Assembly: GCF_030704535.1 (NCBI RefSeq)
Contig: NC_081811.1
Span: 6,180,001 to 6,244,000 of the forward strand
Length of the DNA stretch: 64,000 nucleotides
Direction: 5' to 3'
Origin: Vitis vinifera
Lineage: Eukaryota > Streptophyta > Magnoliopsida > Vitales > Vitaceae
This document shows positions 15,320 through 19,670 of the stretch, one piece after another; the stretch's first letter is position 1; every line of letters begins with the position of its first letter. Under the pieces are notes generated by a model. It did no database searches. It was not told the DNA's origin and saw nothing but the letters and a program-made list of their open reading frames with translations. A program made the translations under genes and the position numbers.

Positions 15320-16324
15320 TGTGGACCCCGCATTTCCGATTGCTCGAATGCGTTTCCCACTCGATTTTTATTTGAAAAATGATTTTTATTGATTAAGAAA
15401 ATGACTTGGAGTCGCCACTTATTTTTGTTTTATTTTTAAAAGGGTAAACAAAATAAGAAAGAAAAACCCTAAATGTGACTCCTTATTTTGGAAAAGACGA
15501 TCTGCGAAAAATCGGATCGGGTTCGGGGGTCAGGTTACTTATCGGGAAGGTACGGTACGGACCGTAGCACCCCTCTAAGTCCCTAAAGTCGGGTCTATAC
15601 TAATAGACTGAAACTGACGTGGCAATCAATGAGGAAATCAGCAGATACTCAAATCAAACTTACACATATGACAATAAGAGCATGCATAGAGAATAATCAA
15701 AATGAGAATGAGTGCATACCTGGACCTCCAGTGACAAATGCGCTATCATGAAGCAGGATCAGTGAGCAACGAACAAGATATAATTAAGTGCATATCATGG
15801 AACAAAATAAATCAAACACGCACGATAAGTAAATCAATCAAACAATCAATCAATCGTCAATTCACATATGTGGGGCCCCCACCAAAGCCCGTTTATTTTT
15901 GCATGAATTAATTCCATAAATTCCATTATTCGAAATTACGGAATTTAATTCTTGCCTATTTTTAAAACATTTTAAAAGATCATGAAGGATTTGAAAATTG
16001 CTTGCCGAATAGAAAGTGGAAGCAAACTTTATTAAAAAGAGATTTTGAGTGATCCTAAAAATTCTAAGGATGAGAATTTGAAGAAGCTAAAATTATTTAA
16101 AGGGTTTAGAGGTTGGAAAACTATTTAAAAGCTTGAATTTGAAAAAGATGTGAGAAATAGGAGTACGAGATTATTTATAAAAACCTAACAAGGATGAAAC
16201 AGAGGGAAGGGGACACGTGGCTCAATGGTGGCACATACTGAAAGTGGCCATGCGTGGCCTGGTAGGAATGGGGGTCCAGAGATGTATTTAGTATTGCGCC
16301 CTCATTGGTTCTAGTTCCACCTAC

Positions 16325-16490
16325 TGCACAGGTCTGTGACACTTTGGACAAGGCTTTATATGAATTGTGATCCAATTGACTGCTTCTGATTCATCTCGGT
16401 ACTTCTTGGCTCAAAACCCCCATATCAAACAGGAACAAGGCGAGTGTGTCTTTGATAAGCAACTGAAGCAAAACTATAGACCGCATGAGT
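16325..16490 (-). pseudogene. Captured fragment: Ariadne-type RBR E3 ubiquitin ligase
   Basis: The minus-strand translation (two frames, with stops) reads FCFSCLSKTHSPCSCLIW, then YRDESEAVNWITIHIKPC and PKCHRPV. This is the end of the IBR zinc-binding domain and the start of the Rcat domain of plant ARI1/2/3-type ligases. Stops occur after the opening GL and near the middle, and a frameshift joins the parts. About 55 codons are present out of a parent of more than 500. Family recognition is from memory of the conserved Cys pattern. Confidence 0.75.
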
Positions 16491-16607
16491 ATTCTTCCTC
16501 ACAAAATTCATCATCCTCAACCCGGATTGCTTCCTCAATGACAGTCACTTTCTGAGAAGAATATGCATTTGCATTTTCTGCTTCCAGTTTACTTGATATT
16601 GGCTTGC
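16491..16607 (-). other. Captured fragment of unknown origin (between ARI and HVA22 pieces)
   Basis: The minus strand reads open as KLEAENANAYSSQKVTV followed by EEAIRVEDDEFCEEE. The acidic, codon-like composition resembles real exon sequence, but I do not recognise the parent gene. Confidence 0.4.
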
Positions 16608-16700
16608 TACTGGCTTATTCCTGTCCATAGTTTTGGAGCATTCAGGATAATCATAACCAAAAGTCAGCATGAGAGCTCTTGAAAGAAGAGACCCCATCAT
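16608..16700 (-). pseudogene. Captured fragment: HVA22/DP1-family N-terminus
   Basis: It starts at an ATG (16700, second ATG 16697) and reads [20 protein letters not shown] then KTMDRNKP. This resembles the N-terminus of plant HVA22-like (TB2/DP1/REEP) proteins: an initial membrane helix followed by the Gly-Tyr-Ala-Tyr-Pro region and a YKTVE-NKP-like motif. The usual tyrosine-rich part is partly lost. About 31 codons. Confidence 0.6.
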
Positions 16701-16743
16701 TTTGAATCCTTAAACACGTAGAAAAGGAAACGACTTCAGGTGC

Positions 16744-16854
16744 CTCTCTTTGATATACATGGTCATTAAGGGATGCAAATCCTGACAAGATTGCAATCTG
16801 CTTCAGTTCTAACACCAGATTAGGTAGTGAGTCAGCTGCTTGAACCATTCTGGC
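16744..16854 (-). pseudogene. Captured fragment: Mediator subunit MED22
   Basis: The minus strand reads [19 protein letters not shown] then [17 protein letters not shown]. This is the central helical region of plant MED22 (family pattern [32 protein letters not shown]). The parent encodes a subunit of the Mediator head module. The fragment begins within a few bases of the end of the RPN8 fragment. Confidence 0.85.
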
Positions 16855-17104
16855 TTTTCTGGGTTGCACTCTCTTTCACTTCCTCAACAGCATAATAAGC
16901 CTTGGTGGGAATTCCTATCTCCTTTGGTTGGACATCAATTATGACTAAGACAGGATTAGGAACATAGTCATGGAACAGTCCGTGAATATCTAGGTCGTTC
17001 TCCTGCAGTGTTGGTCCTGTGTTGTACCATCCAACCACATGCTCCTTGGCATTGATTCTCTTGAACGTGGAAAACATTGATTCATGATAGTTGTGGTCAG
17101 GAAA
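16847..17104 (-). pseudogene. Captured fragment: 26S proteasome subunit RPN8 (PSMD7)
   Basis: Open for 86 codons. It includes [60 protein letters not shown] and [14 protein letters not shown]. This is the MPN-domain core of RPN8, a lid subunit of the 26S proteasome. It is in frame with no stop across this piece, more intact than its neighbours. The parent protein is about 310 residues. Confidence 0.92.
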
Positions 17105-17114
17105 CCACATGCTT

Positions 17115-17640: not shown

Positions 17641-17650
17641 TCTCCGAAAT

Positions 17651-17816
17651 TTAATTACTAGACTGGCGCAATGATGGGCGAATGAAAACTGCGTCTGCAT
17701 GCACCGAGATGTCAACAGTTGGTCTTAGCTGGGCACAAACCTCAATGGCTCCATGCACAAGATCAGAGAGGAAGTTACTGATGAGATCCCAATTGATAGG
17801 AACACCATTGTCCACT
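17651..17816 (-). other. Captured fragment of unknown origin
   Basis: Directly continues the frame of the VPS28 fragment but departs from VPS28. It reads [35 protein letters not shown] and [15 protein letters not shown], then a stop. About 55 codons, clearly protein-like, parent not recognised. Confidence 0.45.
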
Positions 17817-17947
17817 GCCACCACGTTCAACTTCAATGAATCTGTGGCTATAATGAAGTGCTGCACGCACTCTGCTGCAGCGGCGGCTGAGGTAGTGGCT
17901 GATGCAGCTGCAGCAGACCGATGCTCAACTGTGGCAGGCACTCCGGA
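17817..17947 (-). pseudogene. Captured fragment: ESCRT-I subunit VPS28
   Basis: It reads [20 protein letters not shown] and then [20 protein letters not shown]. This is the linker and start of the C-terminal domain of plant VPS28 (family pattern SGVPATVEH...AECVQNFITSMDSLKLNMVAVDQ). The frame is open. Its first codon follows the BAP31 fragment without spacer. Confidence 0.88.
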
Positions 17948-18139
17948 TCTTCATCATACTGCAAATGCTGGACCTAAACACCACAAAGACAATACCAGCA
18001 AACTTCTGGGTCGCGACAGGACCTTTACCATGCTTAACCTGACCCAAAGCCATGACGACCAGATTTCGGAGAGGGATTTGAAGGGGATCATGATAAGAAC
18101 CATTTCGGCATGGGTGATGATGAACAGAAGTTGGATCAT
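17948..18139 (-). pseudogene. Captured fragment: BAP31-like ER protein, N-terminus
   Basis: It starts at ATG 18139: MIQLLFIITHAEMVLIMI, then after a frameshift PLRNLVVMALGQVKHGKGPV, FAGIVFVVF and SSICSMMKI. This matches the N-terminal membrane segments of plant BAP31-like proteins (MIQLLF..IF.EM..I, then PLRKLVIMGLDRVKRGRGP). The parent is an ER membrane protein. About 62 codons with one frameshift. Confidence 0.85.
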
Positions 18140-18317
18140 GTTCTTGTTGATGAAAGGTGAAGCTTAGGGCAGCAGCAGATGGAAATGATTGCTGAGGTGG
18201 CGGAGGTGTTTCGCCGCCGGCGTCGTTTGAGGACAGCTGAGTTATAGACATGGCGCGCACAGTCCTGATCACGTCATTAACATTAAAGACATGCCTTGGT
18301 CCATCGTTCCGAAAATA
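18140..18317 (-). other. Captured fragment(s) of unknown origin
   Basis: Open on the minus strand: GPRHVFNVNDVIRTVRAM, then SITQLSSNDAGGETPPPPQQ. The second part begins at an in-frame ATG and may be the N-terminus of another gene. Not recognised. Confidence 0.4.
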
Positions 18318-18552
18318 TAACTCCACAGCTTTTTCAGGCATAGTGGGCTTGAACTTCAACAGCTTAGCATATTCGTTTAAAAGATGAAACATGTAGTTTG
18401 TCCATCTTCAAGTCCTCTTAGATAAAATCACTGGCTGCCTTCCCCATGGACCGTGCCTTCTGCTTATGGCGGTTGCCCCAGTCAACAGCAAACTTAATTG
18501 ACCTGCACTTGTCATCCTCCCTTATGGACCAATAGCAGTGCACCGGCATCAA
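18318..18552 (-). pseudogene. Captured fragment: DUF821/CAP10 protein O-glucosyltransferase
   Basis: It reads LMPVHCYWSIREDDKCRSIK, FAVDWGNRHKQKARSMGKAA and SDFI, a stop in place of Gln, EDLKMD, then after a small frameshift MFHLLNEYAKLLKFKP and KAVEL. This is the C-terminal part of plant KDEL-containing/Rumi-like O-glucosyltransferases (pattern PV..YWPI..DDKC..IK.AVDWGN). It carries one nonsense change and one frameshift. Confidence 0.85.
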
Positions 18553-18720
18553 ACTCTTAATGAATGCATTGGCTTGGGCTTGGTTGTGGCATGATTGATC
18601 CTGTTGGCTGCTTGCTATTGAGCTCATTTGGCACCCTGAGAGCCATATGCATCTCGTCCACTGGGAACCATGAATCTATGATGGCGAGCCGAAATACATA
18701 GCCATCTCTCCTCGAGCCCA
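18553..18720 (-). other. Captured fragment(s) of unknown origin
   Basis: Minus-strand frames give GYVFRLAIIDSWFPVDEMH and MALRVPNELNSKQPTGSIMP. They look protein-like, but I do not recognise a family. The LTR-like leader begins to the right of this. Confidence 0.35.
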
Positions 18721-19670
18721 GATCAGAATATGCACAGCCAAATCATTCGGAATAAACCCAGAATTGTGAGCCATAAAAGGGATATGGATTGGGGTGCTAG
18801 AAGTAAAGAAGTATGAAAAAAGAAAGAATGGGATATAACGTGCTCAGAACAGAGCAAAACAGAGTGAGCAAAGCATAAGTGGGATCCCCTTTCATATTCA
18901 GATCCAAGGGTTCTGGCCAGTGGTGCATCAGGAGAGTTTAAAATAAATACCATAAGGGGAATGAGCCATATCCAAATAAGCAAAAATACAGAGGAAAGTA
19001 ATACAACATCACACTTATACCCGAACAACCAACCAAGGATCAGAAAGGAAAACAGAGACAGCAAGAGAAAATGTAAGATAGAAAGAAAACAGAGTGAGTG
19101 AGAATAGTCCAAGAGATTACCACCAATGTACCTGGAGATGCTCTTTCAAAGTTCTTGAGTTGTTCCTCCTCTCGCCTCTTCAACTCTATCTTTCTCCTTC
19201 ACTCTCGGCTCCTCCTTTCCTTAAGTTGTCCACCACTCTCAAGCAAACATACTCCCTCCGGTTACCTTTCTCTCATCCTCTGATTTTTCTCTGGAAAACT
19301 CTAACTCTCTGGTTCTTCTCTCCCTCTTCTTTCTCCCCCAGACTCTGAATATCCAGCTTGCCCCTCCAGAATCTCCCAAAACTCACCTTCAATGCAGCTG
19401 CATCATCCTAAAAATATCTCTCACGGTCTCCCCACTCTCTCTGCAGAAACAGCCACCAAAAGCCCCCCCCCACTCTCTGCAGCTGCCATCCTCAACGGTT
19501 TTCAGCTTTTTCTGCTGAAAGAAATCTCCACGTGTCAAGCTTCCATTGGCCATCAAAACCACTAACTTGATACCTTATCAACCAGTCCTGGAGTGACACG
19601 TGGTCATCCCAAACGATGACACTTGTCATAATCGGGCTGTAGAGATGTCTCCCCAAAATGGGGGTCTACA
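18721..19670 (-). other. Non-coding leader / LTR-like end of the chimeric element
   Basis: In minus orientation this starts TGTAGACCCCCATTTTGGGG and continues into a purine-rich tract (GGAGAAAGAAGAGGGAGAG). It then passes a T-rich stretch whose translation is falsely membrane-protein-like. No conserved coding content was seen. It is probably the promoter/leader side of the element. Confidence 0.5.

Follow-up and report, generated by a model that had tools for sequence, protein, structure and literature searches.

Gene capture by the long terminal repeat (LTR) retrotransposons of plants has so far been argued mostly from single cases that involve one gene each. The maize LTR retroelement Bs1 is described with three host genes (PMC13317346), and a survey of maize reports 425 intact LTR elements with gene pieces and at least 189 captures, with no element, under the conditions of that survey, combining pieces from two or more standard nuclear genes (PMC2774510). 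Surveys of genes captured by LTR retrotransposons exist for rice and sorghum as well (PMC3726574). Sabot and Schulman argue in favour of template switching among retrotransposon RNAs that are packaged together (PMC1950507), and BARE-2 and Veju are cited as products of template switching (PMC13317346). One LTR-flanked retrocopy of Arabidopsis retained an intron (PMC4838847), and splicing is therefore not universal in LTR-mediated capture. The current study concerns a unit of 4.35 kb, located at positions 15320-19670 (minus-strand sense) of a 64,000-nucleotide stretch of grapevine DNA (the window; contig C7:6180001-6244000 of a searched genome of 495.6 Mb in 21 contigs, each written as C with a number). 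Very probably, the unit is what LTR-LTR recombination has left of a member of a gag-bearing retrotransposon family, namely a solo LTR, and its U3 region is a collage of spliced mRNAs made through template switching of the reverse transcriptase. The open-access literature searched, with subscription journals largely outside its range, gave no LTR built from many host mRNAs and no case of LTR gene capture in grapevine.

LTR identity of the window unit

Read on the minus strand, the unit starts with TGTAGACCCCC at 19670, its first letters being TGTAGACCCC, and ends with GGGGTCCACA at 15320. GTATT is found on both sides as a perfect 5-bp target-site duplication, so that the TG...CA ends and the duplication of the original prediction are both seen. 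Three more LTRs, found on C11, C4 and C7, start with TGTAGACCC and have the same end GGGGTCCACA; their lengths are 4359, 4057 and 4089 bp, each lies within a perfect 5-bp duplication of its own (CATAC, GTAAG and AATAT, respectively), and the two ends consequently belong to one element. The LTR tail, understood as the last 650-900 bases, occurs in at least 38 places (38 of the 41 examined, window included; a lower bound from 40 scored candidates), and tails on the same strand are paired at a distance of 10-14 kb on C15, C19, C1, C5 and C7.

The arrangement is most fully displayed on C3, where two LTR copies of 4.85 kb, placed 30 kb apart, are 99.57% identical (4859-bp alignment, 16 mismatches, 5 gap openings). 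One of the two is followed by AAATGGCGACTCCACTGGGGA, which resembles a primer-binding site (PBS), and the other is preceded by GAAGAGGGGCATATT, which resembles a polypurine tract (PPT). A gag frame lies about 2.2 kb inside the first LTR (Retrotrans_gag, 1.5e-12). Both LTRs contain element positions 1820-4351, that is, from the end of the VPS28 piece to the LTR end, at 91%. Host cargo is thus present in both LTRs of this relative and lies inside them; for the window copy, a solo LTR is the best reading. Retrotrans_gag is present in the C3 and C15 elements, PBS-like and PPT-like sites accompany both of these relatives, and a PBS-like site is found in a relative on C5; the unit probably belongs to a gag-bearing LTR retrotransposon family.

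The single LTR-like element proposed originally is retained as one unit with LTR ends; its reading as an element bounded by LTRs is replaced by that of one LTR carrying the cargo within its U3. Self-BLAST shows no LTR pair inside the unit, and the local alignment of its 5' with its 3' part (204.6) lies within the range of 50 shuffles (mean 185.6, standard deviation 13.5, maximum 221), as is understood from the unit being itself one LTR, most likely a solo copy. The TATA box at 16179, the only one of the pattern searched, is found downstream of the cargo, which is therefore placed in U3, where it takes up about 2.2 kb.

Regarding the surroundings of the unit, self-BLAST reveals AT-rich repeats at 14319-15204 and 20564-20878, on both sides of the LTR; their similarity is mostly 82-87%, some are inverted, and they have the look of a palindromic element or one of the miniature inverted-repeat transposable element type. 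A search of the window against Rfam gave no match at gathering scores, and exact-pattern scans of viral-contig and genome-contig collections gave none, as expected for a plant.

Host-gene pieces, their donors and their joins

Ten host-gene pieces are present in the window LTR, all ten of them sense to the element: GT90, BAP31, VPS28, ketol-acid reductoisomerase (KARI), 5-oxoprolinase, subtilase, RPN8, MED22, HVA22 and an Ariadne-type ligase. At least nine pieces in a single orientation on the minus strand had been predicted; every one of the ten is matched elsewhere in the genome, and KARI, whose reading ends at a stop codon, is an addition to the earlier list. Pfam cut-offs were passed by six of ten minus-strand stretches (GT90 in two stretches, VPS28, Hydantoinase_A for 5-oxoprolinase, JAB for RPN8, and Med22), by none of ten further minus-strand stretches (one weak match below cut-off), and ten plus-strand frames of at least 55 amino acids had no Pfam match at E-values up to 1. 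Comparison with solved structures placed the RPN8 piece (PDB 8amz, E 1.9e-50), the KARI piece (PDB 1qmg, E 1.5e-20; 3fr7, E 5.4e-20), the Ariadne piece (ARIH1, PDB 2m9y, E 1.7e-5) and the subtilase piece (cucumisin-type, E 0.0011); no convincing structure was retrieved from PDB for the GT90 and 5-oxoprolinase stretches or for a pair of unassigned ones. The names first proposed are thus upheld by Pfam for GT90, VPS28, 5-oxoprolinase, RPN8 and MED22 and by structures for subtilase and Ariadne. No Pfam family model matched the remaining two fragments, which we take to be BAP31 and HVA22, and each still has its matching place in the genome. Pieces of unknown origin had been noted between those named. 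Two of these are now explained: 17426-17280 is part of the subtilase piece, and the 67 bases located 5' of the BAP31 start codon probably represent its leader, because one contiguous match at the BAP31 donor covers both. Start codons with sequence 5' of them are present in the HVA22 and the BAP31 pieces. The cargo frames are interrupted by stops and shifts, and protein function is therefore unlikely.

Wherever it can be tested, the cargo is copied from spliced mRNAs. Parental introns were a decisive check on the RNA origin, and all six testable donor introns are removed exactly at the splice sites (three in RPN8, one each in GT90, HVA22 and MED22). At the RPN8 donor on C8, exons lie 79 and 880 bp apart and there is one further intron; the LTR has the exons joined at the splice sites. 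Protein alignments agree with the RPN8 piece crossing intron sites: among 116 public plant proteins, the best alignment begins at residue 76 in 42 and ends at residue 107 in 57, and two public plant frames run on through an intron after residue 47. For GT90, eight proteins reach further upstream than the last exon, and seven of these break at the exon start, which is crossed by the LTR. A subtilase intron was left out of the count because the paralogues differ, two having an interruption of about 206 bp within the stretch that matches and the closest ones having none.

A place was called a donor if it showed introns or had no LTR tail in the roughly 1.5 kb examined on each side. By this definition the donors are spread over at least six contigs, and no segmental block of parents exists from which the collage might have been taken: BAP31-like and KARI at 5.65 and 3.10 Mb of C12, VPS28 and the subtilase cluster at 5.23 and 3.13-3.16 Mb of C10, 5-oxoprolinase and RPN8 at 15.63 and 17.20 Mb of C8, MED22 at 27.01 Mb of C19, HVA22 at 0.97 Mb of C3, and GT90 on C16. 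The Ariadne-type piece has candidate donors at C3:4.14 Mb and C9:9.80 Mb.

Both donors were available for six joins, and overlap, counted as exactly shared bases on donor DNA, amounts to 3, 7, 2, 9, 8 and 8. In the order of the LTR, the bases common to both donors are TCC (BAP31/VPS28), TGGTGGC (VPS28/KARI), AC (5-oxoprolinase/subtilase), AAGGACCCA (subtilase/RPN8, with paralogue L027), AGCCAGAA (RPN8/MED22) and AGAGAGGC (MED22/HVA22). Under a model of 1/4 match probability per base, at least 7 shared bases at a join have p=3.8e-4 and at least 2 have p=0.16; four of the six joins reach 7. The splice-exact joins, the one orientation and the shared bases together support what was originally put forward as an inference, namely template switching onto cellular mRNAs.

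Differently loaded copies

Besides the window and the C3 pair, the tail occurs together with part of the window cargo in 12 further places (Table 1). The common blocks vary in extent, for example element positions 3082-4351 on C7 as compared to 2624-3167 plus the tail on C11, and the copy at C8:10.5 Mb has the RPN8 piece before the BAP31 piece, opposite to the order in the window. Upstream in the C3 LTR is a piece of Methyltransf_29 (7.5e-8), a family matched by no window stretch. The head and tail of the window LTR recur in the contig-4 LTR, whose middle of 1425 bp tiles into C16, C13, C15, C6, C2/C17/C3, C12 and elsewhere. Some of the longer matches of this middle are probably other LTR copies. 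In two cases adjoining pieces have genomic partners 376 and 118 bp apart, in an exon-like manner, at places not identified as genes. Copies with the same ends do therefore exist, as the original prediction invited one to look for, and their cargo differs. Variants of the chimera also occur in public assemblies (P0001-P0003, P0028, P0045, P0144), with 82-97% protein identity over the main aligned parts.

The contig-4 LTR has a peculiarity of its own (L012 2846-3551): its start occurs twice, about 700 bp apart and with GTAAG before each, as if the first part had been duplicated.

Table 1. Parts of the window LTR, with evidence or matching genome place, and related places carrying tail and cargo (window positions unless a contig is given)
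Feature	Position	Strand	Evidence or matching place
Target-site duplication GTATT, upstream copy	19671..19675	.	end inspection
U3 head, first letters TGTAGACCCCCATT	18565..19670	-	94-98% to contig-4 LTR, element positions 392-1081
GT90 (DUF821) O-glucosyltransferase, two donor exons joined	18314..18564	-	Pfam 3.6e-14 and 7.7e-8; donor C16:21962708-21963062
BAP31-like, leader and start codon (ATG at 18139)	17942..18206	-	nearest matching place C12:5651717-5651985 (80%)
VPS28	17811..17947	-	Pfam 9.4e-11; matching place C10:5233211-5233347 (92%)
KARI, C-terminus and stop codon	17624..17823	-	PDB 1qmg, 3fr7; matching place C12:3098163-3098362 (92%)
5-oxoprolinase	17425..17538	-	Pfam Hydantoinase_A 7e-9; matching place C8:15628729-15628870 (87%)
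Subtilase	17113..17426	-	structure match; matching cluster C10:3127733-3160083 (best 85%)
RPN8, four donor exons joined, three introns gone	16848..17122	-	PDB 8amz; donor C8:17202.7-17204.1 kb (93-98%, three exons)
MED22, crosses one spliced join	16742..16855	-	Pfam 8.1e-7; donor C19:27011.2-27012.7 kb (90%)
HVA22-like, 5' leader, two donor exons joined	16610..16749	-	donor C3:971652-971891 (96% and 84%)
Ariadne-type RBR ligase	16321..16540	-	PDB 2m9y; matching places C3:4137000-4137215 (90%), C9:9799685-9799873 (85%)
Conserved LTR tail: U3 end with TATA box, then putative R-U5, end GGGGTCCACA	15320..16320	-	TATA box, relatives
Target-site duplication GTATT, downstream copy	15315..15319	.	end inspection
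Tail with part of the cargo	C11; C5:9.18 Mb; C3:17.4 Mb; C19:15.5 Mb; C18:18.06 Mb; C18:36.6 Mb		
Tail with part of the cargo	C7:7.30 Mb; C8:20.9 Mb; C5:7.23 Mb; C4:16.7 Mb; C5:16.9 Mb; C8:10.5 Mb		

Elsewhere in the window, a degenerate stretch like a long interspersed nuclear element is found at 2865-9161 (+), with a DUF4283 frame and reverse-transcriptase frames. Two LOB-domain frames, at 37504-37908 (+) and 46755-47300 (-), lie about 9 kb apart in opposite orientation and are 75% alike over 270 bp. At 50128-57500 (-), frames of a PARP catalytic domain and of PADR1 probably constitute one PARP gene.

Origin of the collage and comparison with known systems

The mechanism proposed for the collage would start with reverse transcriptase synthesising the minus DNA strand along the 3' U3 of the RNA of the element. 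At 2-9 matching bases, the enzyme would switch repeatedly onto co-packaged cellular mRNAs and finally return to U3 upstream. Since minus-strand synthesis would read the mRNAs themselves, all pieces would come to lie in sense, as is seen. Plus-strand synthesis primed at the polypurine tract would then copy the composite U3, with the effect that both daughter LTRs receive the cargo. Later cycles could amplify, extend and reshuffle the cargo, with exchange between copies, and LTR-LTR recombination would have left the solo LTR of the window. We infer, in this account, joint packaging in virus-like particles, the strand-transfer step, and growth in steps in preference to one burst. That copies share blocks in a nested fashion suggests several cycles of growth as well as exchange; a single capture burst, followed by recombination between copies, is possible.

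Assembly at the level of DNA could be considered instead, with processed retrocopies linked to one another through microhomology-mediated repair or through template switching in replication, and the finished block taken over later by the LTR family. The 2-9 bases shared at the joins also fit DNA repair, and intron-free stretches of RPN8 (L045/L049, C4:4005357-4005546) and GT90 (L030-L032, contig 6) occur with no LTR tail in the examined flank; these may be retrocopies, paralogues or pieces of further collages. Repair, however, is blind to orientation, whereas the ten pieces all point one way; each piece crossing a tested donor intron is spliced, and several LTR copies hold different blocks within related heads and tails. 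On balance, we consider such a DNA-level origin improbable. Chances are slimmer still that the block is the internal part of a non-autonomous element, its two LTRs having since been exchanged or altered beyond recognition. A 14-mer at 16280, 41 bases beyond the point where the last cargo piece ends, could be taken to represent a second LTR start in that case; it is a weak candidate, with 2 mismatches to the start and 8 of 300 shuffles doing equally well. The internal-region idea is contradicted by the C3 cargo, present in both near-identical LTRs beside PBS-like and PPT-like sites, and by the contig-5 copy L033, in which cargo, tail and PBS-like sequence follow one another; the 5' and 3' parts of the window unit are, moreover, no more similar than shuffles.

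DNA transposons capture genomic DNA, usually keeping its introns, and Pack-MULE, CACTA and Helitron elements are recognised from duplications of 8-11 bp or 3 bp with terminal inverted repeats, or from TC...CTRR termini that lack a duplication. The window unit has a 5-bp duplication and TG...CA instead of these hallmarks. Such elements are common capturers of gene fragments in plants (PMC2774510, PMC13317346), and the unit ends do form an imperfect 10-bp inverted repeat (9/10). Given the splice-exact cargo and the PBS-like, PPT-like and gag sequences of the relatives, together with the LTR pair that excludes it, this origin has practically no probability left.

Several observations weigh against a U3 collage made by template switching and must be set beside the evidence for it. 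Two of the six joins share just 2-3 bases, and the 9-base value at the subtilase/RPN8 join comes from one paralogue (L027), the overlap being 4 with paralogue L026. The donor loci are without annotation, and most were called donors from there being no LTR tail nearby; the 5-oxoprolinase place was judged from 0.6 kb around the match only, the BAP31 match is just 80%, the genome search gave no donor for the stretches 17623-17539 and 16609-16541, and the subtilase intron could not be counted. Among the relatives, pol was not found in five frames scanned. No matching 5-bp duplication flanks the C3 pair, and 1.6 kb past its 3' LTR another LTR start, the third, occurs together with a PPT-like site (L009 sense 7534-9117), so the C3 locus is complex. 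Pfam revealed no cargo family on the contig-4 LTR string and, among the frames submitted from contigs 7 and 15, nothing in the way of additional cargo; it cannot therefore be said that every copy is a collage. Lastly, no cargo-free ancestral LTR was identified, for which reason insertion into U3 is deduced from the shared head and tail.

Taking the template-switching origin as the preferred one, we lean slightly towards the wider view that the family habitually builds its LTRs from the host transcriptome, with U3 serving as a landing zone in which mRNAs are joined serially, and the product being doubled, transposed, extended and reshuffled. If so, each LTR would be a readable record of the mRNAs that shared its particles, and many housekeeping genes at a time could be targeted by small RNAs seeded from such LTRs, or be drawn into new regulatory combinations. 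A small-RNA effect of the cargo is possible. The importance of the family lies in its many ordered captures, in which donors, splice joins and switch points can be read to the base, making the rules of switching measurable: match length, direction, order of acquisition and the mRNAs packaged. Located within the LTR, the cargo is doubled and placed beside a promoter. It could also be a source of error in annotating genes and in work on the small RNAs of this genome.

In comparison with the described systems, maize Bs1 is like the window LTR in being an LTR retroelement with several host-gene pieces, and it differs in having three genes as opposed to ten in 2.2 kb here, where the relatives are also differently loaded. 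The captured genes of Bs1 lie between its LTRs, as compared to inside the LTR here. LTR elements of maize, rice and sorghum likewise carry gene pieces, with the difference that the maize survey, under its conditions, has at most one standard nuclear gene per element. Pack-MULEs and Helitrons resemble the window LTR in their chimeric multi-gene cargo; unlike the window family, they are DNA-based and without LTR, PBS or gag. Ogre/Tat-type Ty3 elements have multi-kilobase LTRs and a similar PBS, and the likeness to the window family is one of PBS and LTR length alone. With BARE-2, VejuL and complex Triticeae elements there is the analogy that switching between co-packaged RNAs alters LTRs (PMC1950507, PMC13317346). 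The partners in those cases are other retrotransposon RNAs (for Veju, a sequence of unknown nature), whereas here they would be many cellular mRNAs used serially. LTR-mediated plant retrocopies share with the window LTR the copying of host mRNA in company with LTR elements, and differ by involving single genes between LTR pieces (PMC4838847). Within LTR gene capture, the features new here are that capture is serial, that it is placed inside the LTR, and that at least two differently loaded middles are held between related heads and tails.

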